Positions 1,963-64,000 of a stretch of 64,000 nucleotides of DNA are shown in pieces; position 1 is the first letter of the stretch, and each line of letters opens with the position of its first letter. Source of the stretch: Myxococcus xanthus (lineage in GTDB: Bacteria; Myxococcota; Myxococcia; Myxococcales; Myxococcaceae); the NCBI RefSeq assembly GCF_006402735.1, contig NZ_CP017174.1, positions 3,103,001-3,167,000 of the forward strand, written 5' to 3'. The notes beneath the pieces are model-generated. The model had not been told where the DNA came from. It saw only the letters and a list, made by a program, of their open reading frames with translations, and ran no database searches. A program made the translations under genes and the position numbers.

Positions 1963-4509
1963 ATGGATCCTCAGCTCTTGCGCAGCATCTGGCCGGTGTT
2001 CTCCGCGGAGACGCGCGAGCAGATTCAAGCCATCGGGTCGAAGGTGTTGGGGCTGGAGGGCCCGGCGCAGGGGCGTGAGCCGGACCTGCTCCCTTCGCTC
2101 AAGCGGCTGGTCCACAGCCTCAAGGGCTCCGCGGCCAGCCTGGGCCTGGACGACATCGAGCAGGTGGTGCACGCCATCGAGGACGGGCTGGCCACCTTCA
2201 ATCAGGAGGAGCGGCTGCCCCGCGACACGGTGGAGGCCATGCTGCGCGGCCTCTCCGCCATTGAAGGCGCCATGGCCCGTGGCGACGCCGGACAGTCGCC
2301 CGTGGTGGAGGGGCTGTCCTCGCTGCTGGCCGCCCTGGGCCACGAGTCCGCGGAGGTCATCCCCCAGACGGCGGCCTCGGGCGCGGCCGCGCAGGGGCTG
2401 GAGGTGCTGGACCTCCTCGAAGCGGGGTTGGGCGCGCTGTGCTCGCCGGATGTGCCGGACCGGGCCGCGGTGGTGCGCACTGCGGTGGAGCGGGCCCGCA
2501 CGCTGAAGGCGTCCGCCGAGTCCGCCGGGGCGCAGAAGGTGGCCACGCTGGCGGATGCCGCGGCGCTGGGCTTCACGCGCATGGAGCCGGGCGGTGACTC
2601 CGCGGGGCTGGCGGCCTCGGACGTGGCTGGCACGCTGGTGGATCTACGGACCGCCTTGGAGGCGGCGGGTGGAGCAGGGGCGGTGGCCCGCGCCGTCCAT
2701 TCGCTGCGCGCGTCGCCGTCTCCCGCGCCCGTGGAAGGCGCGGCGGCCCAGGGGCCCACGGGGGCCGTGGCCACGACGGAGTCCCGCGGACCGGCAGACC
2801 AGACGGTGCGCGTGTCGGTGAAGACGCTGGAGTCCATCGCGCTCCAGGTGGAGCTGCTCCTGGCCGGACGCGCGCAGCAGACGCGGCGTGGTGCGGCGCA
2901 CCGCGTGTTGATGGACGGCATGCGCGAGGTGCTGATGCACCTGGAGCGAGCATCGTCGCAGCTCGCGATGGCGGGCGGCGGTCCCGCGCTGGAGCCGCTC
3001 CGCGCGGGCGTGACGCAGATGCGCGGGCTCCAGAAGCAGCTCCTGGAGCTGACGAAGGAATCGCACCGCGACGGTGAGCAGCTCACGCTGGTGGCCCAGG
3101 TGGCGCGGGATGACTTGCGCGACCTGCGCATGGTGCCGGCCTCGCAGGTGCTGGAGCCGCTGCGCCGCACCGTGCGCGAGACGTCCGCGCGGCTGGACAA
3201 GCAGGTGACGCTGGAGCTGTCGGGCGGCGAGGTGCGGTTGGACCGGCGCATCCTCGACGCGCTGAAGGACCCGCTGCTGCACCTGGTACGCAACGCCATC
3301 GACCACGGCTTGGAGTCCACCGAGGAGCGGCGGGCCGCGGGCAAGCCCGAGGCGGGGCGCCTGACGGTGCGGGTGGAGCCCCGGGGCTCGCGCATCGCGG
3401 TGGTGGTGGAGGATGACGGCTCCGGCCTGTCGCCCAGCCGGGTGCGCGCCACGGCGGTGCGGCGGGGGCTGCTGCCGGCCGACGAGGCGGAGAAGCTGTC
3501 GGACGCGCAGGCGGCGCGGCTCATCTTCCAGCCGGGCTTCTCCACGCGGGAGCAGGTGACGGCGACGTCCGGGCGGGGCGTGGGACTGGACGTGGTGCAG
3601 GCGACGGCGCAGCGGCTCCAGGGCTCGGTGGACGTGGCCTTCACGGCGGGCCGGGGCACGCGCTTCACCGTGGACCTGCCGCTGACGCTGGCCGCGGCGT
3701 TGGGGTTGCTCGTGCGCACGGGCACCACGGTGTCCGCGATTCCCTCCGACAGCGTGAATCGCATCCTCCGGCTGAACCCGGACGACGTGGGCACCGTCGC
3801 GGGCCGCGTGGTGGCGCGGCTGGATGGGGAGCAGCTCACGTTCCTGTCGCTGGCGGAGGCCATTGGCCTGCCCCGGCTGCCGCTGGCGCTGGACTCCGGG
3901 AAGGTGCAGGCCGCCGCGCTGCTGACGGTGGGCGAGGACAAGGTGCTGTACGCCATCGACGAGGTGGTGGGGCAGCAGGAGATTGTCGTCCGCTCCCTGG
4001 GGCGCCACCTCAAGGGCGTGCGGCACCTGGCGGGCGCGGCGGTGCTGGACGATGGCCGCGTGGTGCCAGTGCTCAACGCGGCGGAGCTGGTGCGCGCGGC
4101 GCGGCCGGAGACGCGCTCGGTGGCCCGCGAGACGGCGCGGCCTCGCATCCTCGTGTGTGACGACGCGCTCACCACGCGCTTCGCCATGAAGTCGCTGCTG
4201 GAGATTGCCGGCTACCCGGTGGTGACCGCGGCGGACGGTGAAGAGGCGTGGGGCATCCTGGAGCGCACGCCCTGCCAGCTGGTGGTCAGCGACTGGCAGA
4301 TGCCCCGGCTGGACGGCGTGGGGCTGGCGCGGCGAATCAAGTCGCACCCGCAGCTACACCGCACGCCCATCATCCTGGTGACGTCGCTCGACAGTCCCGA
4401 GGACCGCGCCGCCGGTCTGGAGGCGGGCGCGGACGGGTACCTCGTCAAGCGCGAGGTGGAGCGAGGCCGCCTGCTGGAGCTGGTGCGCCAGCTGCTGCCC
4501 GCATCCTGA
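1963..4509 (+). CDS. cheA: Hybrid chemotaxis histidine kinase CheA with C-terminal receiver
   Basis: 848-residue CheA-CheY fusion. Domains in order: Hpt (about 1-115, phosphorylatable H51 in LVHSLKGSAASLG), a long Ala-rich linker with no clear P2, dimerisation helices, an HATPase (N box HLVRNAIDHGLES near 440-452, G1 VVVEDDGSGLS, G2 TSGRGVGLDVV), a CheW-like regulatory domain, and a receiver (about 725-848) with phospho-acceptor D777 in VVSDWQMP and conserved K829 in LVK. All catalytic motifs are present. The attached receiver may act as output or phosphate sink, as proposed for FrzE-type kinases. Last gene of the visible operon; no cheR or cheB is seen in the window. Confidence 0.93.
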   Translation: MDPQLLRSIWPVFSAETREQIQAIGSKVLGLEGPAQGREPDLLPSLKRLVHSLKGSAASLGLDDIEQVVHAIEDGLATFNQEERLPRDTVEAMLRGLSAIEGAMARGDAGQSPVVEGLSSLLAALGHESAEVIPQTAASGAAAQGLEVLDLLEAGLGALCSPDVPDRAAVVRTAVERARTLKASAESAGAQKVATLADAAALGFTRMEPGGDSAGLAASDVAGTLVDLRTALEAAGGAGAVARAVHSLRASPSPAPVEGAAAQGPTGAVATTESRGPADQTVRVSVKTLESIALQVELLLAGRAQQTRRGAAHRVLMDGMREVLMHLERASSQLAMAGGGPALEPLRAGVTQMRGLQKQLLELTKESHRDGEQLTLVAQVARDDLRDLRMVPASQVLEPLRRTVRETSARLDKQVTLELSGGEVRLDRRILDALKDPLLHLVRNAIDHGLESTEERRAAGKPEAGRLTVRVEPRGSRIAVVVEDDGSGLSPSRVRATAVRRGLLPADEAEKLSDAQAARLIFQPGFSTREQVTATSGRGVGLDVVQATAQRLQGSVDVAFTAGRGTRFTVDLPLTLAAALGLLVRTGTTVSAIPSDSVNRILRLNPDDVGTVAGRVVARLDGEQLTFLSLAEAIGLPRLPLALDSGKVQAAALLTVGEDKVLYAIDEVVGQQEIVVRSLGRHLKGVRHLAGAAVLDDGRVVPVLNAAELVRAARPETRSVARETARPRILVCDDALTTRFAMKSLLEIAGYPVVTAADGEEAWGILERTPCQLVVSDWQMPRLDGVGLARRIKSHPQLHRTPIILVTSLDSPEDRAAGLEAGADGYLVKREVERGRLLELVRQLLPAS

Positions 4510-4521
4510 CGGCGCCGCGCC

Positions 4522-5604
4522 TCACGCGTCGCGAGGCGCCACGGGCACGGTGTCATCCACCGGCAGGTGGACCACCCAGCCGTTGCCGGTCTCCTCCGGC
4601 AACGAGAGGCCACCCCGCAGCCGTTGCGTCAGGTGCCGCAGCAGCGTGACAGTCTTCTCCGGCAGCGCCTTGCTGCCGCGGATGTTGACGCGCAGCTGCC
4701 ACACGCCCGCGTCCCCCGCGGCTTCCACGCGCACCGCCGAGGGCGCGCCCGACGCCGCCACCGCGCGGGCCAGCGTGCGCACCAGCAGCTCCACGTCATC
4801 GCGGGGGCCCGGAATGGCCACGGGCCGGTCCGGGAGCGTCATCGTCGTGTCCACGACGCGGTGGCCGCGCGCGGCGGGGATGAAGGCCGTGCGCAGCATG
4901 GGGCGCAGGTCCTCCACGCCCTCGTCCTGCACCTTCGCCAGCCGGCGCTCGATGATGGCGCTCTGGTCGTCCGCCGAGCGGCGCAGCCGCTCCAGGTAGC
5001 GCTGGATGGGGGCCGTCAGCCCACCCGCCGTTCCCTTCAGCATCATGTCCACGTATCCCTTGATGACCATCAATGGTGTCCTGAGGTCGTGTGACGCCCG
5101 GGAGCGCCGGTGCTCCTGGTTCTCCACCCGCCGTTCCAATCGCCGCTGCGTCTTCAGCAGATGCACGTGCCGCGCCGCCGCGTCCGACTCCCGGGTATGC
5201 GCCGCGAGCAGCACGGCGCCGAACGCCGACATCCGCGCGAGCACCCGCGCATCCCTGCCTGTGAGCCGTTCGGGCCACACGACCAGGGCTGGCCGACGAC
5301 GCATCCTTCCCCGGGCGCGCGTGGCCGTGACGACCCCTGTCGCCGCTACACAGACGCGTCCGTCATAGAAGGCCGCTCCGGAAGCGCCCGTCATCCGCTG
5401 GGCCTCGCGTACCAGGGACTCCAATCCCGCACGAGCACCACAGCGGAAGGCACGTTCGGCAACCTCCGCGAGCGCCTGTTCCACCCCTGCATCGGACTCG
5501 TTGCCGATGCGCCACCCCGTCCAAGCACCTGCCAGCACGCGGGAAGGTATGGGCACTCCACGCACGCGCCGCAACACTGCCCAGGGAGGGCGCCGGACGC
5601 CCAC
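4522..5604 (-). CDS. Histidine-kinase-like protein with degenerate ATPase domain
   Basis: 360 residues, convergent with cheA. The N-terminal 145 residues look like a GAF-type sensor region (inference from layout). A HisKA dimerisation helix with H172 in SHDLRTPLMVIKGY is well conserved. The following region should be an HATPase, but the asparagine of the N box is missing (VELLVRTLARAVAAS is in its place) and no G1 (DxGxG) or G2 box can be found. It may therefore be phosphorylated in trans, dephosphorylate a regulator, or act as a scaffold for the neighbouring chemosensory system. GTG start at 5604 gives the longest form; an internal start is possible. No membrane segment. Confidence 0.7.
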   Translation of the reverse strand: MGVRRPPWAVLRRVRGVPIPSRVLAGAWTGWRIGNESDAGVEQALAEVAERAFRCGARAGLESLVREAQRMTGASGAAFYDGRVCVAATGVVTATRARGRMRRRPALVVWPERLTGRDARVLARMSAFGAVLLAAHTRESDAAARHVHLLKTQRRLERRVENQEHRRSRASHDLRTPLMVIKGYVDMMLKGTAGGLTAPIQRYLERLRRSADDQSAIIERRLAKVQDEGVEDLRPMLRTAFIPAARGHRVVDTTMTLPDRPVAIPGPRDDVELLVRTLARAVAASGAPSAVRVEAAGDAGVWQLRVNIRGSKALPEKTVTLLRHLTQRLRGGLSLPEETGNGWVVHLPVDDTVPVAPRDA

Positions 5605-5710
5605 GAATCGGAAATCCTTTTCCCTTCAGGGCGTGTGAGCCCCCCACTTTTTACCGTCAGGGGGTACGGAGGCGCCGCGCAACCCCGCTCAACTCCTAAG
5701 AAACAGCTCC

Positions 5711-5726
5711 TGGCCAGGCACTTGCT
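5711..5726 (+). promoter_or_regulatory. Candidate sigma-54 (-24/-12) promoter
   Basis: The sequence TGGCCAGGCACTTGCT has TGGC at 5711-5714 and TTGC at 5722-5725. The -24 GG and -12 GC fall at exactly the sigma-54 spacing. The predicted start is near 5737, about 23 bases before the heparinase-type gene at 5760. Positions 5 and 6 of the -24 box differ from consensus (CA for AC). No enhancer-binding site was identified. It would make the polysaccharide operon dependent on an enhancer-binding activator. Confidence 0.5.
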
Positions 5727-5759
5727 ACCGGCATCCGGCACGGGTGGCGGAAGGGGCGA

Positions 5760-7835
5760 ATGGGGACTCTCGATTACTACGCGGCGATCGCTCGACTTGC
5801 ACCAGGTGGACTGGCGCGCAGCGCTGTGCGGCGTGTCCAAGGTGTGGCGCGGCAGGCGCTCTATCGTCGGCGCGAGCGCGCGGACGAGGTGCAGCTCCTC
5901 GAGTGCTACGGCGCGACGGATGGCGTGGAGCTGGTGGAGCTGGCGCTGGGCCAGCGCAGCTCACGCATCTGGTGTGAAGTCTCTCAGCGTGCGTCGGTGC
6001 TGGAGGCGCTCGCCGCGGTGCCCGGCGGCCTGGAGCGCGCGCGGGCCCGTGCCCAGGCCGCGCTTCGCCAGGAGTGGGACGTCTTCGGCACCCCGGTGGT
6101 TTTCGGCGAGGGCCGTCCCGTGGACTGGTCCCTGGATCCGGTGAGTGGTCACCGCTATCCGGTGGAGCCCGTGGAGCGCCTGTCGCTCGCGGTGACGGGG
6201 AGCGACCCGAAGTACCCGTGGGTGATGGGCCGGCTCGACAGCGTCGTGGCGCTGGGCCAGGGCTACTGGGTGGAGACGGCCAGTGACGTGCGCGCGCGGC
6301 TGGCGGATGCCTTCGTGGCGCAGGTGTTGGACTTCCTCCAGGCGAACCCCGTGGGGCAGGGCGTGCACTGGACGTGCGCCATGGAGGTAGCGCTGCGCGC
6401 CGCGAACCTGGCGCAAGCGCTGGCCATGTTCTCCGCCGCGCCCGCGGTGGCCCGGCCGGACTTCCTGGTGCCGGTGCTGAGCGCGCTGGCCGAGCACACC
6501 GCCTGGGTGGAGGCCCACCTGGAGGATCGCGGCGCGGTGCCCAACAACCACCTGGTCTCCAACTACGTGGGCCTGTTGGTGGTGGGCCTGCTCTTCCCGG
6601 AGCTGCCGGGCGCGCCGCAGCAGGTGTCGCTGGCGGTGGGGGGGCTGCGCGAACAGATGGAGAAGCAGGTGCACCTCGAGGGCACGTCCTTCGAGGGCTC
6701 CATTCCCTATCATCGCCTGTCGGTGGAGCTGTTCACCCTGGCGTACCTCGCCGCGCGGGGCGCGGGTGTGCCATTGGGGCCCAAGTACGAGTCCCGGCTG
6801 CGCCGCATGTTCCACGCCGTGCGCGCGTGGTGTTCCGAGCAGGGATTGGCGCCACAGATTGGCGACAACGATTCCGGCCGTGTCTTCCCGCTGCGCGATC
6901 GCGAGGACAACGCGCACGGCTATCTGGTGGGCCTGGGCGCGGCGCTCTTCGGCGATGCGGGCCTGGGTGGTGGCGAGTTCGTGGACGAGGCCGCGTGGCT
7001 GCTGGGCCGCGCCGGGCAGGCGCGTTTCGCCGCGCTCGCGCCCGCGCCGGAGCCCGTGTCGGTGAGCTTTCCGGAGGGTGGCTTTCACATCTTGCGCGGC
7101 GCGGGTGTCGTTATCACTGTCAGCGCCGGCAGGCAGGGACAAGGCGGAGTCGGGGGACACAGCCACAACGACAAACTCTCTTTCGAGCTCCACGTCGACG
7201 GGCGTCCCGTCATCGTGGATCCGGGCACCGGCACCTATACGCGAGAGCCCGCGCTGCGGAACTGGTTCCGCGGAACGGCCGCGCACAACACGGTGCAGGT
7301 GGACGGCGCGGAGCAGGCGCCCCTGGATTCGGCGCGGTTGTTCGCGCTGCCGGAGGAGGCTCGGGCGCGGGTGGTGGCCTTCCTGCCGGGGAAGTCGGTG
7401 GACAGGCTGTTGGTGCGGCATGACGGCTACCGCCGGCTGCCCGCGCCCGTGGGAATCGAGCGCACGTTCCGGCTGGACCGGGGCGAGCGCGCTCTGGCCG
7501 GACGTGACCGCTTCGTGGGCACGGGCCGGCATGACGTGGTGGGCAGATTCCATCTGCCAGATGAACAGGCGCGAGTGGTGTCGCCTCAAGTGCAGGTCCT
7601 GTCACGCGCGGGTCGTGTGATGGAGGAGCCGGTGTCGTTCGAGCCGCTCGTGGTGGAGCTGGGGCCGGAAGGGGCCCCGCTCGCCTGGGTGGTGCTGGAG
7701 AAGGGACTGACGGCGCGGTTGGTGCCGTCGAAGTATTCGCCAGGGTACGGGCGGGTCGTGCCGTCGCTGGCGGTGGAGTTCCGGGGGCAGGTGACGCCTC
7801 CGGCGTGGCTGAGGTGGGTGGTCGTTTTCCGCTGA
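5760..7835 (+). CDS. Heparinase II/III family protein (polysaccharide lyase-like)
   Basis: 691 residues, full length for proteins with an alpha/alpha-toroid N-terminal domain and a heparinase II/III beta-sandwich. N262-N263-H264 (PNNHLVSNYVG) sits in the toroid. The C-terminal hallmark is H467-S-H469-N-D471 followed by a GRPVIVDPGTGTY strand and AAHNTVQVDG. These are typical for uronate-polysaccharide lyases found in exopolysaccharide loci. The start at 5760 has a purine-rich GGAAGGGG just upstream. No clear signal peptide is seen, so a cytoplasmic or unusual export route is possible. It is followed after 58 bases by a nucleotide-sugar dehydrogenase, which suggests a role in making or trimming an acidic surface polysaccharide. 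The substrate is unknown. Confidence 0.85.
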   Translation: MGTLDYYAAIARLAPGGLARSAVRRVQGVARQALYRRRERADEVQLLECYGATDGVELVELALGQRSSRIWCEVSQRASVLEALAAVPGGLERARARAQAALRQEWDVFGTPVVFGEGRPVDWSLDPVSGHRYPVEPVERLSLAVTGSDPKYPWVMGRLDSVVALGQGYWVETASDVRARLADAFVAQVLDFLQANPVGQGVHWTCAMEVALRAANLAQALAMFSAAPAVARPDFLVPVLSALAEHTAWVEAHLEDRGAVPNNHLVSNYVGLLVVGLLFPELPGAPQQVSLAVGGLREQMEKQVHLEGTSFEGSIPYHRLSVELFTLAYLAARGAGVPLGPKYESRLRRMFHAVRAWCSEQGLAPQIGDNDSGRVFPLRDREDNAHGYLVGLGAALFGDAGLGGGEFVDEAAWLLGRAGQARFAALAPAPEPVSVSFPEGGFHILRGAGVVITVSAGRQGQGGVGGHSHNDKLSFELHVDGRPVIVDPGTGTYTREPALRNWFRGTAAHNTVQVDGAEQAPLDSARLFALPEEARARVVAFLPGKSVDRLLVRHDGYRRLPAPVGIERTFRLDRGERALAGRDRFVGTGRHDVVGRFHLPDEQARVVSPQVQVLSRAGRVMEEPVSFEPLVVELGPEGAPLAWVVLEKGLTARLVPSKYSPGYGRVVPSLAVEFRGQVTPPAWLRWVVVFR

Positions 7836-7893: not shown

Positions 7894-9222
7894 ATGAGGG
7901 TGATGGTGAGCAGCCCGCTTCTGGATCGCATCAAGAAGCGGGACGCGAGGGTGGGTGTTGTCGGGCTTGGTTACGTCGGTCTTCCGCTGGGCATGGCTTT
8001 CGCGGAGGCGGGCTTCCCCGTCATGGGGCTCGACATCGACAAGCGGAAGATCGACAAGATTGAGAAGGGGGAGAGCTACATCAAGCACATTCCCAGCGCT
8101 CCGCTGGCGGAGCTGAGCAAGTCGGGCAAGCTGAAGGCCACCACGGACTTCGCCAAGGCGAAGGACATGGACTGCGTCATCATCTGCGTGCCCACGCCGC
8201 TCACCGCGTCGCGTGAGCCGGACATGAGCTACATCATCCAGACGGGGGAGGCGCTCGCGCCGCACGTGCGGCGTGGACAGCTGTTCATCCTGGAGTCCAC
8301 CACGTATCCGGGGACGACGGAGGAGGTGCTCAAGCCGCTGCTGGAGAAGAACGGCCTCAAGGCGGGCGAGGACTTCTACCTGGCCTTCAGCCCCGAGCGT
8401 GAAGACCCGGGCAACAAGAGCTTCAACACCAAGACGATTCCGAAAATCGTCGGTGGCTACTCTCCCGCGTGTTCCGAGGTGGCCGCTGCCCTCTACGGCA
8501 GCGCGTTGAAGGAAGTGGTGCCGGTGTCCTCCACCCGCGTGGCGGAGCTGACCAAGCTGCTGGAGAACATCTTCCGCTGCGTCAACATCGCCATGGTCAA
8601 TGAGATGAAGATGCTCTGCGACCGAATGAACGTGGACGTGTGGGAGGCCATCCAGGCGGCGAGCACGAAGCCCTTCGGCTTCATGCCCTTCTTCCCGGGC
8701 CCGGGCCTCGGTGGGCACTGCATCCCCATTGACCCGTTCTACCTGACGTGGAAGGCGCGCGAGTACGAGTTCCACACCAAGTTCATCGAGCTGGCCGGCG
8801 AGGTGAACTGGCAGATGCCGTACTACGTGGTGCAGCGCACGATGGAGGCGCTGAACAAGAACAAGCAGACGCTCAACGGCGCGAAGGTCCTCTGCCTGGG
8901 GGCGGCGTACAAGAAGGACATCGACGACATGCGTGAGAGTCCGTCGTTGCGCGTCATGACGCTGCTGGCGGAGAAGGGCGCGGAGCTGTCGTACCACGAC
9001 CCGTACGTCCCCGAACTGCACAAGGGCCACGGCTTCAACATGGAGATGAAGTCCGTGCCGCTGAAGCCGGAGACGCTGGGCCAGTACGACGCGGTCCTCA
9101 TCCTCACGGACCACTCCGACATCGACTACGCCATGTTGGTGGACCGCGCGAAGGTCGTCGTCGACACGCGCAACGCCACCAAGGGTGTCAGCAAGGGTCG
9201 TGAGAAAGTGACGAAGGCCTGA
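7894..9222 (+). CDS. Nucleotide-sugar dehydrogenase (UDP-ManNAc/GlcNAc/GalNAc 6-dehydrogenase type)
   Basis: Oxidises C6 of a UDP-sugar to the uronic acid with two NAD+ and provides acidic precursors for surface polysaccharide. The N-terminal Rossmann motif is VGVVGLGYVGLPLG, the catalytic cysteine is C276 in GGHCIPIDP, and the C-terminal domain has the family signature AAYKKDIDDMRESPS seen in WecC/TviB/WbpO-type enzymes. About 442 residues. ATG 7894 is chosen because AGGAGAGG lies at proper distance; GTG 7885 and ATG 7903 are alternatives. Likely co-transcribed with the heparinase-type gene. The exact sugar cannot be told from sequence alone. Confidence 0.9.
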   Translation: MRVMVSSPLLDRIKKRDARVGVVGLGYVGLPLGMAFAEAGFPVMGLDIDKRKIDKIEKGESYIKHIPSAPLAELSKSGKLKATTDFAKAKDMDCVIICVPTPLTASREPDMSYIIQTGEALAPHVRRGQLFILESTTYPGTTEEVLKPLLEKNGLKAGEDFYLAFSPEREDPGNKSFNTKTIPKIVGGYSPACSEVAAALYGSALKEVVPVSSTRVAELTKLLENIFRCVNIAMVNEMKMLCDRMNVDVWEAIQAASTKPFGFMPFFPGPGLGGHCIPIDPFYLTWKAREYEFHTKFIELAGEVNWQMPYYVVQRTMEALNKNKQTLNGAKVLCLGAAYKKDIDDMRESPSLRVMTLLAEKGAELSYHDPYVPELHKGHGFNMEMKSVPLKPETLGQYDAVLILTDHSDIDYAMLVDRAKVVVDTRNATKGVSKGREKVTKA

Positions 9223-9235
9223 CAGTCATACGCCG

Positions 9236-9264
9236 CCCGCCCGGAAACCGACCCTCCGGGCGGG
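9236..9264 (+). terminator. GC-rich hairpin after the polysaccharide operon
   Basis: A perfect 9-bp stem, CCCGCCCGG at 9236-9244 and CCGGGCGGG at 9256-9264, with an 11-base loop. It starts 14 bases after the dehydrogenase stop. No T run follows, so it may slow or stabilise transcript ends rather than be a textbook intrinsic terminator. Confidence 0.5.
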
Positions 9265-9273
9265 GGGCCCCTC

Positions 9274-9307
9274 GCTCACGGATTCCGCCTTCGCGGCATC
9301 CGTGAGC
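9274..9307. other. Long near-perfect inverted repeat (stem-loop)
   Basis: GCTCACGGAT (9274-9283) pairs with ATCCGTGAGC (9298-9307). Inside it CCGC pairs with GCGG around a CTTC loop, with a single T/C mismatch between the two helices. Fourteen of fifteen pairs form. It follows the hairpin at 9236-9264 and could act in either direction. Its presence makes a start at 9302 for the next gene unlikely. Confidence 0.6.
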
Positions 9308-9352
9308 GTGGAGCTGCTCGTATCGTGGAAGGGATGGGCTAGTGTCGGGGCC

Positions 9353-11077
9353 GTGCAATCCCTCCTTCGAACCGTGTTTCCCCTGCTGGCACTCTCGGCG
9401 CTGCTGACGGCGGCGGCGCCCGTGCCGGATGCGCGCGTGAAGCTGCTCGAGGCGATGTCCGCAGAGCTGGCGCGCAACCACCAGCAGCTGAAGATGCAGA
9501 ACCACGAACCCCCGTATTTCATGAGCTACCAGCTCAAGGACTACGAACAGCACGCGATTTCCGCGCGCTATGGGGCGCTGTTCATGGACGACGGCTACCG
9601 CGAGCGGAAGCTGTACGTCGACGTGCGCGTCGGTGACTACGACTTCGACAGCTCGGTGGCGGAGGGGCTGGAGTTCAGCTTTTCGACCAAGGGCACCAGC
9701 TATGTGTCGCGCAAGGAAGGCCCGCTGGACGACTCGCCGCTGGCGCTGCGCACCTCGCTGTGGCTCATCACCGATGAGAAGTACAAGTCCGCGCTGTTCC
9801 AGTACCTGAAGAAGAAGGGCGAGGACGTCTACGCGGTGGAGGACCCGAAGCGTCCGCCGTCCTTCACGCGTGAGAAGCCGGTGAAGCACGTGGAGCCGCC
9901 GGTGGAGGCTCCGTTCGACCGCGAGCGCTGGGTGAAGGTGGCCCGCGACGTGTCGGCGCGCTTCAACGCGCACCCGGAGCTTTTCGACTCGGAGGTGCGC
10001 GTCACCAAGGACAAGGTGACGCGGCTGTTCGTGTCCTCGGAAGGCAGCCGCATCATCACCGAGGAGACGCTGTACGGCCTGCATGTCTCCGCCGTCACCC
10101 GGGCGCCGGACGGGCAGCTGCTGGACAACTCGCGCAACTTCTATGTGCCCGCCGAAGCGGGGCTGCCGGACGTGGCGCGCCTGAACAAGGCGGCGGATGA
10201 CGTCATCCAAGAGCTGCTGGCCCTGCGCGCGGCGCCCGCCATCGACCCGTACACGGGGCCCGCCATCCTCGCGCCGGAAGCGGCCGGGGTGCTCTTCCAC
10301 GAAGCGGTGGGGCACCGGCTGGAGGGAGACCGGCAGGAAGGTGACAACGAGGGCAAGACGTTCAAGGGCCAGGTGGGCAAGCAGGTGCTGCCGTCGTTCA
10401 TCTCCATCCACGACGACCCGACGCGGCGCGTGCTCCAGAGCGAGCCGCTCAACGGCTACTACCTCTTCGACGAGGAGGGCGTACGCGGGCAGCGGGTGAC
10501 GCTGGTGGAGAAGGGCGTGCTGCGCAACTACCTCCAGGGGCGCCGGCCGGTGGAAGGCTTCCTCCAGTCGAACGGCCATGGCCGCAGCCAGGGCAACCTG
10601 AAGCCGGTGGCGCGCATGGCGAACCTGATGGTGGAGAGCACGAACGGCGTGAGCGACGCGGAGCTGAAGAAGCGCCTGATTGCCGAGGCGAAGCGTCAAG
10701 GCAAGCCGTTTGGCCTCATCATCCGCGACATCACCGGGGGCAACACCAACACGTCTGGCTACGGCTACCAGGCCTTCAAGGGCGTGCCGCGCATGGTGTA
10801 CCGGGTGGACGTGAAGACGGGGAAGGAGACGCTGGTGCGCGGCGTGGAAATCGTGGGCACGCCTCTGTCGGCGGTGAACCGCATCCTCGCCTCGGGGCAG
10901 AAGCCCGGCATCTTCAACGGCTTCTGCGGCGCGGAGAGTGGCAATGTCCCGGTGTCCACCGTGGCGCCGGCCATGCTGCTGCAGGAGCTGGAGCTCCAGC
11001 GCACCATGGAGGGGAAGGACCGCCCGCCGATTCTCACCAGCCCGGCGGCGCTGGAGTCCCCGGCGGCGAAGCCGTAG
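9353..11077 (+). CDS. TldD/PmbA-family metalloprotease with signal peptide
   Basis: 574 residues from GTG 9353. The N-terminus is a hydrophobic signal-like stretch (LLRTVFPLLALSALLTAAA), unlike the cytosolic TldD/TldE pair of E. coli that matures peptides and antitoxins. The family zinc motif HExxxH is intact (H316, E317, H321 in FHEAVGHRLEGD), and the later GIxxGG-type region GLIIRDITGGNTNTSGYG is present. About 215 residues of variable sequence precede the catalytic part. No TldE/PmbA partner lies next door. I infer an envelope peptidase. The upstream GTG at 9302 lies in the 9274-9307 hairpin and would bury the signal peptide, so it was not used. Confidence 0.82.
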   Translation: MQSLLRTVFPLLALSALLTAAAPVPDARVKLLEAMSAELARNHQQLKMQNHEPPYFMSYQLKDYEQHAISARYGALFMDDGYRERKLYVDVRVGDYDFDSSVAEGLEFSFSTKGTSYVSRKEGPLDDSPLALRTSLWLITDEKYKSALFQYLKKKGEDVYAVEDPKRPPSFTREKPVKHVEPPVEAPFDRERWVKVARDVSARFNAHPELFDSEVRVTKDKVTRLFVSSEGSRIITEETLYGLHVSAVTRAPDGQLLDNSRNFYVPAEAGLPDVARLNKAADDVIQELLALRAAPAIDPYTGPAILAPEAAGVLFHEAVGHRLEGDRQEGDNEGKTFKGQVGKQVLPSFISIHDDPTRRVLQSEPLNGYYLFDEEGVRGQRVTLVEKGVLRNYLQGRRPVEGFLQSNGHGRSQGNLKPVARMANLMVESTNGVSDAELKKRLIAEAKRQGKPFGLIIRDITGGNTNTSGYGYQAFKGVPRMVYRVDVKTGKETLVRGVEIVGTPLSAVNRILASGQKPGIFNGFCGAESGNVPVSTVAPAMLLQELELQRTMEGKDRPPILTSPAALESPAAKP

Positions 11078-11171
11078 CCGCGCGCCTCAGTGCCCCAGCC
11101 GCTCGTGGGCGGTTTCCAGCACGCCGTGGAACCGCTGGGAGAGTCCGATATGCACTTTTGAAAGATGCAGG

Positions 11172-11185
11172 GGCGCAGCAGCGCC
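11172..11185 (-). terminator. Small hairpin downstream of the lipoprotein metallopeptidase gene
   Basis: GGCGC-TGCT-GCGCC on the minus strand, starting right after the stop codon of the gene ending at 11186. It is followed by a weak pyrimidine stretch (CCTGCATCTTTC). It could end transcripts of that gene; without a clean T run this is tentative. Confidence 0.35.
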
Positions 11186-57372: not shown

Positions 57373-59037
57373 TCATGCGTGGGATTGCTGGGTCCGGTCG
57401 ATGAGCCGCTCCACTTCGTTGGCGAATCGGAGGACCTCGTCGCCCACGGAGGGCTTGTCGTCCTTCATCGTCTTGCGCATCGCGTCCTTCACGCGCTCCT
57501 TGAGGGGGCCGATGCTGAGACTCCCCGGTGCCTGGCTGGGCGGGTACTCGATGAGGCTCTCCGCGAACTTCTTCACCAGTCCTTGCGCGGGGACGAAGAG
57601 GAACATCCGCTGGCCATACCAACGCGTATAGAGGCCCGAATGGAGCCCCTCCTCGAACGGGTCCGAGCGCAGGTTGATGAGGTAGGGCCAGGACGGATTG
57701 AAGCGCTTGCCGCTGAACCAGAGGTCAGGGCCGTCGCCTTCCTGGTAGGCGAAGATGACCTTCCAGTCGTCGTACCGGACCGCGGCGAGCTGGCCGCTGT
57801 CGAGCACGTAGATGAACTCGTGGCGCCGGCTGGGCTCCTTTCCCACGAGCAGCCCGCGCTGGTCATACCCATCCAGGCACACGCGGAACGTCTTGTCTCC
57901 CGCGCGGTAGCCCTGCCGGCACTGCTCGGCGAGGTCATCGGGGCCACCCGCCGCGGCCACCATCGTCGGCATCCAGTCCTCGTGGGCGAAGATGTCGTTG
58001 ATGACGCGGCCCGGCTCGATGACGCCCGGCCAGCGCGCGACGCAGGGCACGCGGACACCGCCTTCCCAGGTGGAGCCCTTCTCCCCGCGGAACGGTGAGT
58101 TGCCTCCGTCCGGCCAGCCCATCTTCTCCACGCCGTTGTCGGTGCTGAAGATGACCAACGTATCGTCCGAGATGCCCAGCGCGTCGAGCTTGTCCAACAG
58201 AATGCCGACGTAGTCGTCCAGCTCCGCCATGGCGTCCGCGTACAAGCCCTTGCCCGTCTTGTTGCGGTACTTCTCCTGGAGGAATGTCCACACGTGCGTA
58301 CGCGTGGTGTTGTGCCAGATGAAGAAGGGCTCACGCGCCTTCACCGAGCGCTCCATGAAGGACAGCGTCGAGGCCAGGAACTCCTCGTCCACCGTCTCCA
58401 TGCGCTTCGTCGTGAGCGGTCCGGTGTCCTCGATGCGCTGTCTGCCCACGCGGCCCCAGCGCGGTTCATCCGTGGGGTCGTCCCGGTCCGTGGCCCACGC
58501 GTGGAGCACGCCTCGCGGCCCGAAGCGGGCCTTGAACGAAGGGTCCTTCGGGTAGTCCGGGCACTCGGGCTCGTTCTCCGCGTTCAGGTGGTACAGGTTT
58601 CCGTGGAACTCGTCGAAGCCGTGCACGGTGGGCAGGTAGCGGTTGGAGTCGCCCAGGTGGTTCTTCCCGAAATGCCCGCAGCGGTAGCCCAGGGGCTTGA
58701 GCAGTTCCGCGATGGTCGGGTCCGACGCCTGAAGTCCGTAGTCAGCGCCCGGCATGCCGATGGTGGTGAGGCCCGTGCGCAGGGGATTCATGCCGGTGAT
58801 GAATGCCGCGCGGCCGGCGGTGCAGCTCTGCTGGCCGTAGCAGTCCGTCATCAACGCGCCCTCGCGGGCGATGCGGTCGATGTTCGGCGTCCGGTAGCCC
58901 ATCATCCCCTGGTTATAGGCGCTGATGTTCCACAGTCCGATGTCGTCACCCCAGATGACGAGGATGTTCGGCCGCTGTCCCGCGCCCCTGCCGTCCTGCC
59001 CGTTGCCTTTGCGTTTCAGTCTGTCGATGAACGACAT
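57373..59037 (-). CDS. Arylsulfatase (formylglycine-type)
   Basis: 554 residues. Sulfatase motif SCTAGRAAFITG with C72 and R76; C72 is expected to be converted to formylglycine (CxAxR form, the anaerobic-type maturase or FGE consensus variant). Metal ligands appear in NILVIWGDDIG and FSTDNGVEKMG. No signal peptide is visible (it starts MSFIDRLKRK), so it is probably cytoplasmic. It removes sulfate esters, perhaps from ingested glycans or lipids. No maturase is seen nearby. Strong GGAGG before ATG 59037. Confidence 0.9.
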   Translation of the reverse strand: MSFIDRLKRKGNGQDGRGAGQRPNILVIWGDDIGLWNISAYNQGMMGYRTPNIDRIAREGALMTDCYGQQSCTAGRAAFITGMNPLRTGLTTIGMPGADYGLQASDPTIAELLKPLGYRCGHFGKNHLGDSNRYLPTVHGFDEFHGNLYHLNAENEPECPDYPKDPSFKARFGPRGVLHAWATDRDDPTDEPRWGRVGRQRIEDTGPLTTKRMETVDEEFLASTLSFMERSVKAREPFFIWHNTTRTHVWTFLQEKYRNKTGKGLYADAMAELDDYVGILLDKLDALGISDDTLVIFSTDNGVEKMGWPDGGNSPFRGEKGSTWEGGVRVPCVARWPGVIEPGRVINDIFAHEDWMPTMVAAAGGPDDLAEQCRQGYRAGDKTFRVCLDGYDQRGLLVGKEPSRRHEFIYVLDSGQLAAVRYDDWKVIFAYQEGDGPDLWFSGKRFNPSWPYLINLRSDPFEEGLHSGLYTRWYGQRMFLFVPAQGLVKKFAESLIEYPPSQAPGSLSIGPLKERVKDAMRKTMKDDKPSVGDEVLRFANEVERLIDRTQQSHA

Positions 59038-59174: not shown

Positions 59175-60065
59175 TCAGCTCATCAGCCGGTGGAGGCTGA
59201 GGTCCAGGCGGCTCTGGACCAGGCCCAGGAGGCTCTCCACCTCGCGCCCGTCCAGCTTCAGCCGGGCGGCCAGCTCGCGGTGGGTTTGCTTCAGGAGCCG
59301 CTCACGGGCCTGGGCCACGTGGCGTGCCACACTGGAGCGGGGCTCCGCGTACAGCGTGGCGATGCGGTCCATGGTGAGGCCATGGAGATGGTGCAGGCGC
59401 AAGAGCGCGCGCTCCCGTTCGGACAACATCGCCAGCGCGGCCTGGAGGGATTCGGACAGGGCTTGCCGCGAGTGGGCCTGGAGCACGTTTCGCTCGGGGT
59501 TGTCCCGGGACAACAGCTGCTCCAAGGCCTCCGGGGGCGTGGATGACTGCTCGTGGCGGCCGGTCTGCTCCAGCAACTCGCCGCCGATGCGCGAGGCGAC
59601 GATTCGCACCCAGCGGCCCAGCGAGCCCCGGCCCGAGTACTCCGCGATTTTCGGCGCGCCGCCGTGAACGCCCAGCAGGAGCCGCTGGCGCGTCACCTGG
59701 AGCACCTCGTCCACCATCGCCGTGAGGTGCCGGGACAGCCGTGCGGCGGCTTTCTGGAGGACGTGCTTCTCGAAGAGCTGCAACGCCTGGGGCTCTCCCT
59801 GGGCACAGGCACACGCCAGGTAGACGTCCGCGGCGTGGAGCTGCTTGAGCGCATCCAGGGGTGTGCCTTCCGCGCGCAGGTGCCGACCCACGTGGTGCAA
59901 CAGGGCCGCGGGCGCCAGCGTCACGGTGGGCCACGCCGCACGGCCTTGGTCGAGCAGCTCCGTGAGCAGGGCCTCCAGCGCGGGCGCGGAGCGCAGCGTG
60001 TCGTGCAGCGACTCGGGTGCCCCCGCGAGCAGCAGCGGCGTCAGCGTTTCCGGAGCCTGGCTCAT
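59175..60065 (-). CDS. Sigma-70-family RNA polymerase sigma factor (ECF-like, myxobacterial type)
   Basis: 296 residues. A sigma-2-like part (LQLFEKHVLQKAAARLSRHL near 95-115) and a sigma-4 HTH (SERERALLRLHHLHGLTMDR then RIATLYAEPRSSVARHV) near 215-265, with about 60 residues before region 2 and 30 after region 4. I recall Myxococcales-restricted sigma-70 families of this size; exact family not verified. The ATG at 60065 overlaps the stop of the kinase gene (ATGA), so kinase and sigma factor are made together. No separate anti-sigma gene; the kinase itself begins with a zinc motif of that kind. Confidence 0.85.
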   Translation of the reverse strand: MSQAPETLTPLLLAGAPESLHDTLRSAPALEALLTELLDQGRAAWPTVTLAPAALLHHVGRHLRAEGTPLDALKQLHAADVYLACACAQGEPQALQLFEKHVLQKAAARLSRHLTAMVDEVLQVTRQRLLLGVHGGAPKIAEYSGRGSLGRWVRIVASRIGGELLEQTGRHEQSSTPPEALEQLLSRDNPERNVLQAHSRQALSESLQAALAMLSERERALLRLHHLHGLTMDRIATLYAEPRSSVARHVAQARERLLKQTHRELAARLKLDGREVESLLGLVQSRLDLSLHRLMS

Positions 60066-63000
60066 CGGGTGACCTCGCTCACACGGGGCAGGTGCCGCGC
60101 CTGCCATGCCACGAGCTCGTCGTGCTCGCGCCGGGCGCGCAGACCCTGGGCTTCCAGCCACGCTTTCGCCTCGCGGATGAGGGCCGTGGCCTGCTCGCGT
60201 CCATCCGGGGCGGGCCGTTCCCACAGGGCCCGTGCGAGGAGGAAGGACACTCGCGCGGCTTCCTTCCGGTCCAGCCACACGCGCGCATGGATGCGCCGTG
60301 CGCGCTCGAGCAGCGGGACGGCTTGCTCCGGCGCGCGCAGGCTCAGGTGGGCCTCTCCGAGGCAGGCGAGGTCGAGCGCGACGTCCGGGCTGTCGTCACC
60401 CTGCGCGGCTTCATCCAGGGCCAGGGCGCGCTGGCAGCGGGTAAGTGCCGCCCGGAATGCGCCCGTCTCCAGGTCCACCCGGGCCAGGTCCCGCTCCACG
60501 CCACACGCCACCACGCTGTCGGTGCCGTTCGCCTTCTGAAGGAGGCCCAGCGCCTTCGTCAGGTTGCGCCGCGCCACCGCCGGTCGGCCCGCGCGCAGGT
60601 GAATGAGGCCCAGGTTGCGCAGCGACATCTCCAGGCGCGGCGAGTCCTGGCCCACGCTGCGTTGGATGCGCTCCAGCGCCTGCTGGTTGTGGGCGAGCGC
60701 CTCGTCGAGCCGGTCGGAGTCATAGGCAACCATGCCCAGCCCGCCGAGCGCGGTGACGGTGCTGGGGTGGTCCGTCCCCTTGCTGCGCTCGAAGATGGCC
60801 AGGGCTCGCTCATAGTGGCTCCGGGCTTCCCCCAGGCGCCCCTCGCGGCGCAGCAGTCCGGCCAGGTTGTTGAGGGGGGCGGCCAGGCTCGCGTGGTCCT
60901 TGGAGCGCGCGGCCTCCAGCAGCGCCAGCGAGCGTTGGAACGTTTCGAGCGCTTCTTGCGTGCGGCCCAGGGCGAGCAGTTCGGTGGCGATGTTGTTGAG
61001 GTTGAGCGCGAGCACCGGGTGCTCGGGGCTCCACTGTCGCTCCTGGAATGCGTAGGCCTGCGCCTCCCGGTAGAGCGCCAGGGCCTCCTCCGCGCGAAGC
61101 TGCCGCGCGCGGACGCGCCCCAGGCCGGTGAGGAAGTACGTCACGCGAGGCCGTGAGGGGCCCGCGGTCCGCCGCGCCAGCTCCAGGCCCTGGGTGAACT
61201 CCGCGTCCGCTTCGTCCAGCTTGCCCTGCACCAGGAGCAAGCCGCCCATTCGCAGGTGCAGGTCGGTGGCGATGTGCGGGAAGCGCTCGCGGCCCAGTCG
61301 CTCCACCGCGGCGCGGGCATGGTGCACCAGCCGGTTCGCCTCTTCCATGCGCGCCATCTGGTCGCCCACCACCCACAGGAGGAGGTTCCAGACACGGGCC
61401 ACGGTTTCGTCGTCGCGGCCCGCCTCGGCGGCCCAGAGCGCCTTGTAGAGGTGCTCCTCGGCTTCCTTGGGCTTGCCGGCGAGCCCATGGGCATAGCCGT
61501 GCAGGGTGAGGACCTCTGCCTCCAGCGGGCGGTAGTCCAGCCCCTGGATGTCCTGGAGCAAGGCCGTCGTCTCCTTCAACGCGCCGGGGTGGTTGCCCGC
61601 GTCCATGTGGGCCCGCGCCTCGGCCAGCTTGCGCCGCGCCGCGTCCACGCGAGGCCGCAGGGCATCCGGAGGCTGAGGCCGGTTCGCCAGCTCCGGCGCG
61701 TCCCGGCAGCCGGAGACTCCCTCCAGGGACGCCACCATCTGCGGCGCGTTCTGCACCGTGCGCGCGTCCGCCTCCTCCAGCACGTCGACGACGGCGGCCA
61801 GGTGCCACAGCCGTGTGTCCAGGCACGCGGCCGTCTGCCATGAGTCCTTGGTGTCATCGCGCGAGGCCGTGCACGCGTCGGTGCGCAGCTCGCGCCACGT
61901 GTCCGCGTGTCCGTCCAACGTGCTGGCGACGGCTTCCCACGCGGCGGCGGCGAAGGGCTTGCCCGTGGCCAGGAAGGCCGCATGGATTCGAGCGCGGCGC
62001 TCCGGTCCCCAGATGGTGGTGAGCCGCTCCGCCTCCAACTCGCAACGGGCCTGCCTCCGATGCGCCGCCACGTAGCCCACGGTGAGCCCTAGAAGACACG
62101 CCACGGCGGCGGAGGCGCCCACCCAGGCAAGGCGCCTTCCTGCGCGGGGGGCTAGCTCGGTCAGCAGCGCCTCCATCGATGGGAAGCGCTCTTCCGGCTG
62201 GGCTCGCAAACCCCGCAGCACCGCGCGCCGCACACGGGCCGGGATTTTCGATTCGCGCTCTGGCGCGCGGATGCGTCCTTCCCGCGCGGCCTGACCCAAC
62301 GCTTCCAGCGTCCGGCCCTCGAAGGGGCGCACGCCGTGGAGCGCTTCGTACAGTGCCACGCAGAAGCTGAACTGGTCCGAGCGCGCGTCCACGCCGTGTC
62401 CCTGAAGCTGCTCGGGCGCCATGTACGCCGGCGTGCCCAGCAGCGCGCCCGAATGGGTCAGCGGCGAGTCCACCAGCGAGGCCGGCGCCGTCACCGTGTC
62501 CAAGCGCGCTGGCGTGGCGTGGCCCAAGACTCGCCGGTGGGAGGGCCGGGCCAGACCGAAGTCCGTCACCCGCACGCGCCCATCCTTCCCGACCAGCACG
62601 TTGCCCGGCTTGAAGTCGCGGTGGACCAGCCCGGCGGCGTGGGCGGCCGCCAGTCCCCGGCCCGCGTCCACGAACACGCGCACCACGTCCTGCCATGGAT
62701 GCGGCGTCTCCAGCCACTCCGCCAGCGACGCGCCCTCCACCAGCTCCAGCGCCAGGAAGACGCAGTCATCGCAGACGCCCACGTCGTGGACGGTGACGAC
62801 GTGCGGATGGGCCAGCCGGGCCAGGGCCTGAGCCTCGCGCAGCAGCCGCAGGCGCAGCTCCTCCAGGTGCCGGCCCTCGGGGCGCAGCAGCTTCAGCGCG
62901 ACCCTTCGGTCCAGCTCCGGGTCATGGGCCGCGTACACCTCGCCCATGGCGCCCCGGCCAATGCGCTCCTGCACCACGTAGCGTGAGAGCTGGGTGCCCG

Positions 63001-63178
63001 GGGTCACCAGCGGGCCATCGACGGGCAGGGACGCGGCCTCCGGCGCACTGGCGCCCAGGGCCAGGTGCTCCTGGCAGCGCTCACATCCCTCCACGTGGGC
63101 CAGTACGCGCGTGCGGTGCGCGTCCGGGAGCGCCCCTTCGAGGAAGTCGCTCAGTGTCGTCTCGCTCGGGCACCCCAT
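60062..63178 (-). CDS. Zinc-finger Ser/Thr protein kinase with TPR domain
   Basis: 1038 residues. Order: a 45-residue N-terminal module with H28-x3-C32-x2-C35 (HVEGCERC), the zinc anti-sigma (zf-HC2/ZAS) pattern; a Hanks kinase (about 66-340) with G-loop IGRGAMGEVY, K96 (VALKLL), HRDFKPGN (D188), DFG (D206) and APE; a transmembrane helix (about 349-371); a helical region; and a C-terminal array of about a dozen TPR-type repeats, many kinesin-light-chain-like (LNNLAGLLRREGRLGEA). Kinase and zinc module would be cytoplasmic and the TPRs outside. The downstream overlapping gene encodes the sigma factor, suggesting the kinase holds and releases it. Confidence 0.93.
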   Translation of the reverse strand: MGCPSETTLSDFLEGALPDAHRTRVLAHVEGCERCQEHLALGASAPEAASLPVDGPLVTPGTQLSRYVVQERIGRGAMGEVYAAHDPELDRRVALKLLRPEGRHLEELRLRLLREAQALARLAHPHVVTVHDVGVCDDCVFLALELVEGASLAEWLETPHPWQDVVRVFVDAGRGLAAAHAAGLVHRDFKPGNVLVGKDGRVRVTDFGLARPSHRRVLGHATPARLDTVTAPASLVDSPLTHSGALLGTPAYMAPEQLQGHGVDARSDQFSFCVALYEALHGVRPFEGRTLEALGQAAREGRIRAPERESKIPARVRRAVLRGLRAQPEERFPSMEALLTELAPRAGRRLAWVGASAAVACLLGLTVGYVAAHRRQARCELEAERLTTIWGPERRARIHAAFLATGKPFAAAAWEAVASTLDGHADTWRELRTDACTASRDDTKDSWQTAACLDTRLWHLAAVVDVLEEADARTVQNAPQMVASLEGVSGCRDAPELANRPQPPDALRPRVDAARRKLAEARAHMDAGNHPGALKETTALLQDIQGLDYRPLEAEVLTLHGYAHGLAGKPKEAEEHLYKALWAAEAGRDDETVARVWNLLLWVVGDQMARMEEANRLVHHARAAVERLGRERFPHIATDLHLRMGGLLLVQGKLDEADAEFTQGLELARRTAGPSRPRVTYFLTGLGRVRARQLRAEEALALYREAQAYAFQERQWSPEHPVLALNLNNIATELLALGRTQEALETFQRSLALLEAARSKDHASLAAPLNNLAGLLRREGRLGEARSHYERALAIFERSKGTDHPSTVTALGGLGMVAYDSDRLDEALAHNQQALERIQRSVGQDSPRLEMSLRNLGLIHLRAGRPAVARRNLTKALGLLQKANGTDSVVACGVERDLARVDLETGAFRAALTRCQRALALDEAAQGDDSPDVALDLACLGEAHLSLRAPEQAVPLLERARRIHARVWLDRKEAARVSFLLARALWERPAPDGREQATALIREAKAWLEAQGLRARREHDELVAWQARHLPRVSEVTR

Positions 63179-63235: not shown

Positions 63236-64000
63236 TCAGGCCTGGGCGCGTGACTTGAGGCGGGCGAAGAGCTCGGGAGGCATGGAGGCGGTGCCCAGCC
63301 GGTGGTCGGCGGAGATGGCCTCGCCGTGGAAGTCGCTGCCAGCGGTGGGGACCAGGTCCAGCTCCTTGGCCAGGCTGAGATACTTCTGGCGCACGCTGGG
63401 GTTGTGGTCCTCGTGCAGCACCTCGAGGCCCGCCAGTCCCGCCAGGGCGAGCGCGCGGATCTCCAGCCGCTCCATGCGCGATGAACCCGGGTGGGCGAGG
63501 GTGGCCGTGCCGCCCGCGTTGCGGATGAGGCGGATGGCGTCCTCGCCGGCCAGCTTGAAGCGCTCCACCCAGGCCGCGCCGCGCATGCCCAGGAAGCGGT
63601 CGAAGGCCTCCTTCACGTCCACCACCCAGCCGCGGTCCACCAGCACGCGGGCCAGATGGGGACGTCCCAGCTGCGCGTCGCCGGCCACCGCCCGGACGTG
63701 CTCCATGCGCACGGGGTAGCCCAGCTGCCGCATGCGCTCCAGCAGGGCTTCCATGCGCTGCTCGCGCTCCAGCCGGAGCCGGTCGGCGAAGCGAGCGATG
63801 TCCTCGTCGTCCGGCCTCAGGAAGTGCCCCAGGATGTGGCACTCGCGTCCATGAATGAACGCGGAGATTTCGATGCCTGGCACCAGCTCCACGCCGTGGG
63901 CGCGCGCCGCCACCTCGGCCTCGGCCAACCCCGCGACGGTGTCGTGGTCGGTAATCGCCAACACCGTCACCCCGGCGGCGGCCGCCCGCGCCAGCAGCTC
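63236..64000 (-). CDS. PHP-domain phosphoesterase (TrpH/RNase AM-like), 5' end outside window
   Basis: 255 residues visible; the true N-terminus (family start like DLHSHT) lies beyond base 64000. Metal-binding PHP motifs: ITDHDTVAGL near the visible start, PGIEIS, then ATLAHPGS and GSDFHGE. The family includes nucleoside 3',5'-bisphosphate phosphatase/5'-3' exoribonuclease (YciV/TrpH). Directly upstream of the kinase gene on the same strand, 57 bases away, with the candidate ECF promoter between them. Not obviously part of the kinase operon. Confidence 0.87.
   Translation of the reverse strand, partial: ELLARAAAAGVTVLAITDHDTVAGLAEAEVAARAHGVELVPGIEISAFIHGRECHILGHFLRPDDEDIARFADRLRLEREQRMEALLERMRQLGYPVRMEHVRAVAGDAQLGRPHLARVLVDRGWVVDVKEAFDRFLGMRGAAWVERFKLAGEDAIRLIRNAGGTATLAHPGSSRMERLEIRALALAGLAGLEVLHEDHNPSVRQKYLSLAKELDLVPTAGSDFHGEAISADHRLGTASMPPELFARLKSRAQA

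Follow-up and report, generated by a model that had tools for sequence, protein, structure and literature searches.

The window analysed here is a stretch of 64,000 nucleotides of the Myxococcus xanthus genome (RefSeq assembly GCF_006402735.1, contig NZ_CP017174.1, positions 3,103,001 to 3,167,000 of the forward strand). Near its end, two overlapping minus-strand genes encode a receptor-like Ser/Thr kinase and a sigma factor of the gmx1 family (TIGR03001). As judged from profile and fold matches, the N-terminal module of the kinase is homologous to the zinc anti-sigma domains, and the pairing of gmx1 sigma factors with kinases carrying this module, called zinc-kinases hereafter, is conserved across the Myxococcota. 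With moderate confidence, we view the kinase as a one-protein receptor for its dedicated sigma factor, in which the tetratricopeptide repeat (TPR) part would sense a signal, the module would dock on and hold the sigma factor, and the kinase activity would release it.

The genes and their parts are listed below in window coordinates, AF2 being AlphaFold2, pLDDT its predicted local distance difference test score and ORF an open reading frame.

60062..63178, minus strand: receptor-like Ser/Thr kinase of 1038 aa with an N-terminal zinc module (ORF; Pfam zf-HC2, Pkinase and TPR)
63050..63178, minus strand: zinc module, kinase residues 1-43 (zf-HC2 match, alignment A3, AF2 model, PDB profile and fold matches)
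62981..63049, minus strand: linker from zinc module to kinase domain, residues 44-66 (AF2 pLDDT of 61-62 in blocks 41-60)
62168..62980, minus strand: Hanks kinase domain, residues 67-337, with G-loop 74, HRD 186 and DFG 206 (Pfam, motifs)
62066..62131, minus strand: predicted membrane helix, about residues 350-371 (hydropathy alone)
61706..62044, minus strand: four conserved Cys (379, 436, 452, 491) past the membrane helix (conservation among receptors)
60275..61438, minus strand: TPR-rich probable sensor part, about residues 581-968 (Pfam and NCBIfam TPR matches)
60062..60065, minus strand: ATGA overlap of the kinase stop and the sigma start (sequence)
59175..60065, minus strand: sigma factor TIGR03001 Sig-70_gmx1 of 296 aa (NCBIfam, 329 bits, above the curated cut-off of 154.6)
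59844..59978, minus strand: extra N-terminal sigma helices, about residues 30-74 (AF2 model)
59541..59837, minus strand: sigma2 domain, about residues 77-175 (AF2, fold matches to sigmaE region 2, conservation)
59706..59711, minus strand: acidic D119-E120 of sigma region 2.2 (conservation)
59259..59474, minus strand: sigma4 domain, about residues 198-269 (Pfam Sigma70_r4_2, fold matches to sigL region 4 and others)
59181..59249, minus strand: family-specific C-terminal sigma helices, about residues 273-295, with the conserved S278 (AF2, pLDDT about 67-76)

The kinase gene reads from ATG at 63178 to TGA at 60064..60062, and the sigma gene from ATG at 60065 to its end at 59175. The first-pass annotation of this DNA had described their overlap, an HxxxCxxC start, an intact Hanks kinase, one membrane helix and a long TPR tail, and all of these features hold. 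The Pkinase match at residues 67-337 scores 130 bits with the motifs GRGAMG, HRD186 and DFG206 intact. The most hydrophobic 19-residue windows outside the kinase fold are by far those of 349-373, where hydropathy predicts the single membrane helix, and the TPR families of Pfam and NCBIfam match repeatedly in the C-terminal part.

The module matches zf-HC2 at residues 9-36 with 32.4 bits against the cut-off of 22.2. H28, C32 and C35 make up the HxxxCxxC motif, and the upstream conserved C3, which the earlier description did not list, is with them a probable zinc ligand. The pattern was found in 77 of our 79 first-pass kinases, and alignment A3 holds 73 of these 77 modules. Its rows were picked by HxxxCxxC exclusively, which makes H28, C32 and C35 invariant in it by construction; C3 is kept in at least 90% of the 73.

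Searching the PDB sequences with the module profile gave six matches at E <0.001, which are RslA (the best, E 7.7e-08), DdvA, RsiW, ChrR (twice) and one CHAT-domain protein; the seventh was a ferritin at E 0.54 and was judged noise. In the AF2 model of residues 1-64, helices span 6-14, 19-31 and 33-43 and the rest is unstructured. All 16 Foldseek matches of this model are RslA, DdvA, RsiW or ChrR, and the best superposes with a root-mean-square deviation (rmsd) of 1.5 over 40 columns. Both sequence and fold matches thus uphold a kinship of the module with zinc anti-sigma domains, as had been claimed.

The CHAT-domain protein (PDB 8rot and 8rw5, 991 aa) carries its related zinc module at residues 8-44, so the module may be fused to other signalling proteins too. 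In the same genomes as the zinc-kinases, zinc-module genes other than kinases adjoin another sigma-like gene in 8 of the 8 looked at, which were hand-picked from a longer match list.

The pairing is complete within this genome. Its single contig of 9.3 Mb has seven gmx1 sigma genes over the cut-off, and all seven have a nearby kinase on the same strand with a Pfam zf-HC2 match, in three kinase-first and four sigma-first pairs. When 150 of 491 candidates in the genome were scored by the A3 module profile, these paired kinases were the best 7 of 24 matches with 65.0-79.5 bits, the next scoring 41.1. The ranking is partly by construction because the seven kinases are rows of A3, and the Pfam result is independent of it. 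Among the kinases found in this genome, a strong module occurs only in the seven beside gmx1 sigma genes; one other (C1:1750875) bears a weak module, placed far upstream of the kinase domain, and it lacks a gmx1 neighbour.

Of 97 sampled Myxococcota genomes, 48 had a TIGR03001 match, which was over the cut-off in 47, and single genomes had up to 12 matches (G055). We examined two sets of loci, in which 165 of 167 sigma sequences are distinct. Set A has 87 loci from 26 genomes and is not random, combining 38 profile-search places, 42 nearer places chosen by hand from among the matches listed for their spread over genera and genomes, and the 7 of this genome. Set B has the best 80 of 108 loci of named records. 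Another strain of the species, M. xanthus AM003 (L265), likewise has a gmx1 sigma gene with a zinc-kinase some 1.2 kb downstream on its strand.

In the stretch examined around each sigma gene, a kinase is present at 79 of 87 loci of set A and 65 of 80 loci of set B, and the nearest one bears the module in 76 of 79 and 62 of 65 cases, respectively. Where the N-terminus is assessable, this makes 138 of 142 nearest kinases, with L168 (kinase ORF from contig base 2) and L238 (31 bases from the contig start) excluded; their inclusion gives 138 of 144. The first-pass annotation had listed the lack of a conserved pairing of the two genes across myxobacteria among the outcomes that would refute it, and the pairing is found at 136 of 140 loci after the removal of two duplicate sigma loci.

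All four gene orders occur. In sets A and B, respectively, the nearest kinase stands kinase-first in 22 and 30 cases, sigma-first in 30 and 9, divergent in 21 and 24 and convergent in 6 and 2. Of 49 tight kinase-first pairs, 35 allow the sigma gene to start with an overlap.

Eight genomes were counted whole (G000, G043, G060, G063, G066, G073, G087 and G091), and in them the module is near 42 of 48 gmx1 sigma genes, one of these at about 5 kb. Two of the 48 genes score below the cut-off; one lies in G043, and the other, in G063, is broken. The high module scores there are partly by construction since A3 holds rows from seven of the eight genomes, none being from G087. The six gmx1 genes with no module nearby are one each in G060, G063, G066, G073, G087 and G091.

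Five of these six exceptions, those other than in G073, belong to a single sigma clade (support 1.0), whose ten members are six linked and four unlinked ones (L189, L210, L219 and L228); the unlinked sigma factor of G087 shares 91% identity with L219. A distant zinc-kinase is present in every one of the five genomes (L322, L310, L323, L324 and L325), and the six best relatives of each such kinase are those of the six linked clade members. The distant and the linked kinases form a clade in turn (support 0.999), which includes the second copies L328 (G063) and L329 (G087), and all the distant ones keep the four ligand positions. The pair therefore appears to have survived genomic separation. For the G073 exception, no matching distant kinase was found among the module matches looked at. 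Zinc-kinases away from any gmx1 gene were seen in several genomes (L310, L322-L326, L328 and L329).

The module also co-varies with the sigma factor. Across 138 pairs, the distances among sigma factors follow those among modules with r 0.793 and those among kinase domains with r 0.700. No kinase window of equal length (48 tried, maximum 0.734) and no random set of 43 kinase columns (300 drawn, maximum 0.724) attained the module value, even though module and kinase domain share one polypeptide. A published correlation of extracytoplasmic function (ECF) sigma factors with class I anti-sigma factors, on other data than ours, is 0.82, and 0.5-0.6 for non-partners (PMC7406223). Along the sigma factor, the module correlates best with the windows 208-257 in sigma4 and 158-197 in the linker (up to 0.717). 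The kinase domain peaks at the same windows, so they hint only weakly at a sigma4 contact.

Two tandem zinc-kinases stand beside one sigma gene at L331, L169 and L247. The tandem copies diverge most in the outer part (36-62% identity), so one sigma factor may receive input from two sensors. In three of five tandem pairs, the copies are more similar in the module than in the kinase domain. In G063, a gmx1 sigma gene with an in-frame TGA (L327:7332-7889, plus strand) lies between zinc-kinases at 4189-7344 and 8024-11179. For a related tandem kinase pair in G087 (L326), the stretch examined contains no sigma gene.

The sigma factor itself consists of the sigma2 and sigma4 domains, as found by fold, with helices added at both termini. 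Its AF2 model (residues 26-296, mean pLDDT 87.8) begins with the extra N-terminal helices, continues through sigma2, a low-confidence linker and sigma4, and closes with two C-terminal helices. Region 2 of sigmaE matches with Z 9.4 (rmsd 2.3, 93 aligned) and region 4 of sigL with Z 9.5 (rmsd 1.8, 71 aligned); of the Pfam sigma families, region 2 is unmatched and Sigma70_r4_2 is matched.

The sigma factors are acidic at two places. All 138 paired ones have E or D at position 120 and 116 of them D or E at position 119, and the sigma2-sigma4 linker of 167 sigma factors has on average 7.0 D/E versus 3.1 K/R. With region 2.2 already acidic, the sigma factor should require no phosphorylation for charge but rather to be held back. 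It looks competent by itself, which favours an anti-sigma role of the module.

The kinase domain appears intact. The catalytic K, D and N and the DFG D are retained in 139 of 140 zinc-kinases, the remaining L184 being cut by a contig end, which argues that catalysis matters alongside the module. A pseudokinase idea arose as 11 of the 140 had been flagged motif-less, and it was dropped as an artefact of fixed windows and an HRD-only pattern; the ten flagged besides L184 align with HGD or HCD in place of HRD. Zinc-kinases with HGD form a non-RD clade (L013, L207, L214, L215, L222, L277, L310, L322-L325, L328 and L329), whose six linked members retain the other catalytic residues.

A heuristic hydropathy scan placed a membrane helix C-terminal to the kinase domain in 109 of 140 zinc-kinases. 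Among the 31 with none, 15 are long, several just below the threshold, and 16 are short; ten of the short ones are complete within their loci and may be soluble. Past the helix, 86 long receptors have near-invariant Cys at 379 (83 of 85), 436 (84 of 86), 452 (84 of 86) and 491 (85 of 85), in keeping with disulphides outside the cytoplasm. The kinase tail is thus very probably extracytoplasmic, in agreement with the outside signal proposed by the first-pass annotation.

Considering all these together, the signalling would proceed as follows. The extracytoplasmic TPR part would sense the signal. The cytoplasmic zinc module would dock on its cognate gmx1 sigma factor, with sigma4 as the likeliest contact, and would retain it close to the membrane, out of reach of RNA polymerase. 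Upon ligand binding, the kinase would phosphorylate the sigma factor, its own linker or module, or both, which would end the module's grip and let the sigma factor join RNA polymerase. The docking is probable, with homology, linkage, the separated pairs and the co-variation all arguing well for it. Less firmly, we infer that the sigma factor is held inactive, that sigma4 is the site and that a signal-dependent phosphorylation is the release.

How the module would hold the sigma factor is suggested by the class I anti-sigma domains, whose helices 1-3 form the bundle, helix 1 meeting sigma4, and whose helix 4 meets sigma2 regions 2.1/2.2 (PMC7406223). The AF2 model of residues 1-64 has no such fourth helix after residue 43, although one could be induced by binding, and no helix is predicted in linker residues 44-64. 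Across 139 zinc-kinases, the linker measures 11-80 residues (median 25), and it averages 4.4 Ser/Thr. The modelled module looks like a shortened anti-sigma factor, the sigma4-docking half with the three-helix bundle minus the sigma2-blocking helix, and it may hold the sigma factor only jointly with the kinase domain. We tentatively extend this into a truncated anti-sigma factor whose grip the kinase domain would complete and, upon an outside ligand, break by phosphorylation, with several receptors or sensors possibly converging on one sigma factor.

Several points weigh against a holding receptor. Lacking the fourth helix in its model, the module alone is doubtful as a full inhibitor. Its model is of moderate confidence (mean pLDDT 75.8, predicted template modelling score, pTM, 0.48), and its Foldseek E-values of 0.69-7.2 are weak because the domain is small (40 residues). 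The VIA Z values of the module, which are 7.3 for ChrR (rmsd 9.9, 63 aligned), 6.1 for RsiW (4.6, 63), 5.8 for RslA (4.3, 53) and 3.0 for DdvA versus 2.7 for the sole unrelated row, are not decisive alone since a Z below 8 often arises by chance.

The pairing and co-variation have exceptions, too. Four assessable nearest kinases are without the module (L181, L193, L269 and L287); those of L193, L269 and L287 have a complete N-terminus and lie 1.1-4.1 kb from the sigma gene. At 15 of 167 loci, no kinase is in reach and no contig edge excuses it; one of them, L307, carries the module in an ORF truncated at the end of the contig, and eight further kinase-less loci lie at a contig edge. In two of the five tandem pairs, similarity is lower in the module than in the kinase domain, one of these modules being cut by the locus end. 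For sigma pairs of <50% identity, the module (r 0.403) does no better than the kinase domain (r 0.419), so the co-variation signal comes from closer relatives. Lastly, no Ser/Thr is clearly specific to the paired sigma factors (138 paired versus 14 unpaired).

Beside these exceptions, the kinase at L181:4715-6718 (minus strand) adjoins its gmx1 sigma gene and has a module-like N-terminus without the Cys ligands. S278 had been considered as a phosphosite of the sigma factor, position 278 being S or T in 94% of the 138 paired ones. It was dropped, being equally conserved in the sigma factors with no neighbouring kinase (14 of 14).

Another reading is docking only. The sigma factor, inactive by itself, would be brought to the kinase by the module and switched on by phosphorylation, as EcfK is by PknS and EcfP by PknT, with no inhibition by the module. 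The neighbouring membrane TPR kinase resembles PknS (PMC13147305), the catalytic residues are retained in the zinc-kinases and the modelled module lacks the helix for sigma2 contact, all as such recruitment would have it. EcfK, however, is charged by PknS in region 2.2 and in the sigma2-sigma4 linker, and both places are already acidic in gmx1 sigma factors; also the most conserved Ser, S278, is kept equally without a paired kinase. We consider docking only to be unlikely.

Still less probable is that the zinc module acts on the kinase itself, as a dimer contact or a redox or zinc sensor, and leaves the sigma factor untouched. The module does belong to the kinase polypeptide, and the soluble HX3CX2C anti-sigma factors such as RshA are redox sensors (PMC8999054). 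However, of the six related PDB sequences all but the CHAT-domain protein are anti-sigma factors, the strong module is confined to the gmx1-adjoining ones among the kinases found in this genome, and the module distances track the sigma distances. Bacterial genes are often tightly linked, and short overlaps between them are frequent, but it is very improbable that the two genes are merely co-inherited as an operon with no contact of their products, as they stay paired in all four orders (kinase-first, sigma-first, divergent and convergent) and after separation to distant places in five genomes.

The favoured receptor that docks, holds and releases its sigma factor departs from the first-pass annotation in some respects. 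Activation by phosphorylation of the ECF43 type, which had been suggested, fits poorly as a general mechanism since the sigma factor keeps its acidic region 2.2. A compact one-protein switch stands as to the fusion, which is real, but one protein does not always go with one sigma factor, given the tandem zinc-kinases at L331, L169 and L247 and the far-apart pairs of one clade.

The surrounding genes tell little. The gene at 57373..59037 (minus strand), 3' of the sigma gene, is presumably sulfatase-like. None of the remaining 166 loci in the two sets has a match to it at E 1e-20, the orthologous pairs lack it as a neighbour, and so nothing is concluded on the regulon. The gene upstream of the kinase (63236..63970, minus strand) is presumably PHP-like and is kept at four other loci.

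A few other loci are peculiar. At L253, L264 and L301, a kinase-less gmx1 sigma gene (near 7001, plus strand) is directly 5' of an FHIPEP gene for the export gate of type III secretion or flagella, and this adjacency hints at control of a secretion system. At L158:6193-6606 (minus strand), a short ORF with its own zinc module adjoins the sigma gene besides a zinc-kinase, possibly encoding a stand-alone anti-sigma protein. L302 has a gmx1 sigma gene and a zinc-kinase in a record titled Comamonas sp. KCTC 72670, a genome that is perhaps mislabelled or mixed.

The Myxococcaceae have about 100 kinases per genome (PMC7694542), and the present pairs offer testable kinase-sigma couples for the myxobacterial kinome. 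The N-terminal module provides a rule for predicting the sigma partners even when the genes are far apart. If our view is true, anti-sigma and kinase control would be united in one polypeptide within a sigma family spread across the Myxococcota, and a single protein would connect a signal from outside with RNA polymerase.

Neither kinase-linked sigma factors nor zinc anti-sigma factors are new. A review assigns the control of sigma factors by anti-sigma factors and by kinases mostly to separate groups, which the mycobacterial PknB cases link through separate proteins (PMC8999054). In the open-access literature searched, we found no description of zinc-module kinases or of such a fusion serving as the regular partner of a sigma family, and the title of TIGR03001, Sig-70_gmx1, names no partner or mechanism.

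Among the kinase-linked systems, PknS phosphorylates EcfK in Xanthomonas citri and PknT phosphorylates EcfP in Vibrio parahaemolyticus, both sigma factors being of ECF43 (PMC13147305, PMC8999054). As in these pairs, a Hanks kinase gene adjoins an ECF-like sigma gene here, and like our kinase, PknS is in the membrane, with its TPR in the periplasm (PMC13147305). The ECF43 sigma factors are described as being without the acidic region 2.2 residues and gaining the charge by phosphorylation (PMC8999054, PMC13147305), and EcfK is phosphorylated in the sigma2-sigma4 linker as well (PMC13147305). In contrast, the gmx1 sigma factor keeps the acidic D119 and E120 with no Thr/Ser substitution. Compared by description, PknS has an N-terminal extension of 83 residues to which no role is assigned, and the main text on it never mentions zinc (PMC13147305).

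Among the anti-sigma factors, RslA, RsiW, ChrR and DdvA share with our module the HX3CX2C three-helix bundle and a gene beside that of a sigma factor. Unlike them, our module is fused to a kinase and has no fourth helix in its model. The nearest known logic is that of SigH-RshA-PknB in Mycobacterium tuberculosis, in which the zinc anti-sigma factor is a protein of its own that a kinase phosphorylates (PMC8999054). These are separate proteins, whereas the putative anti-sigma module and the kinase of the gmx1 system reside in one polypeptide.

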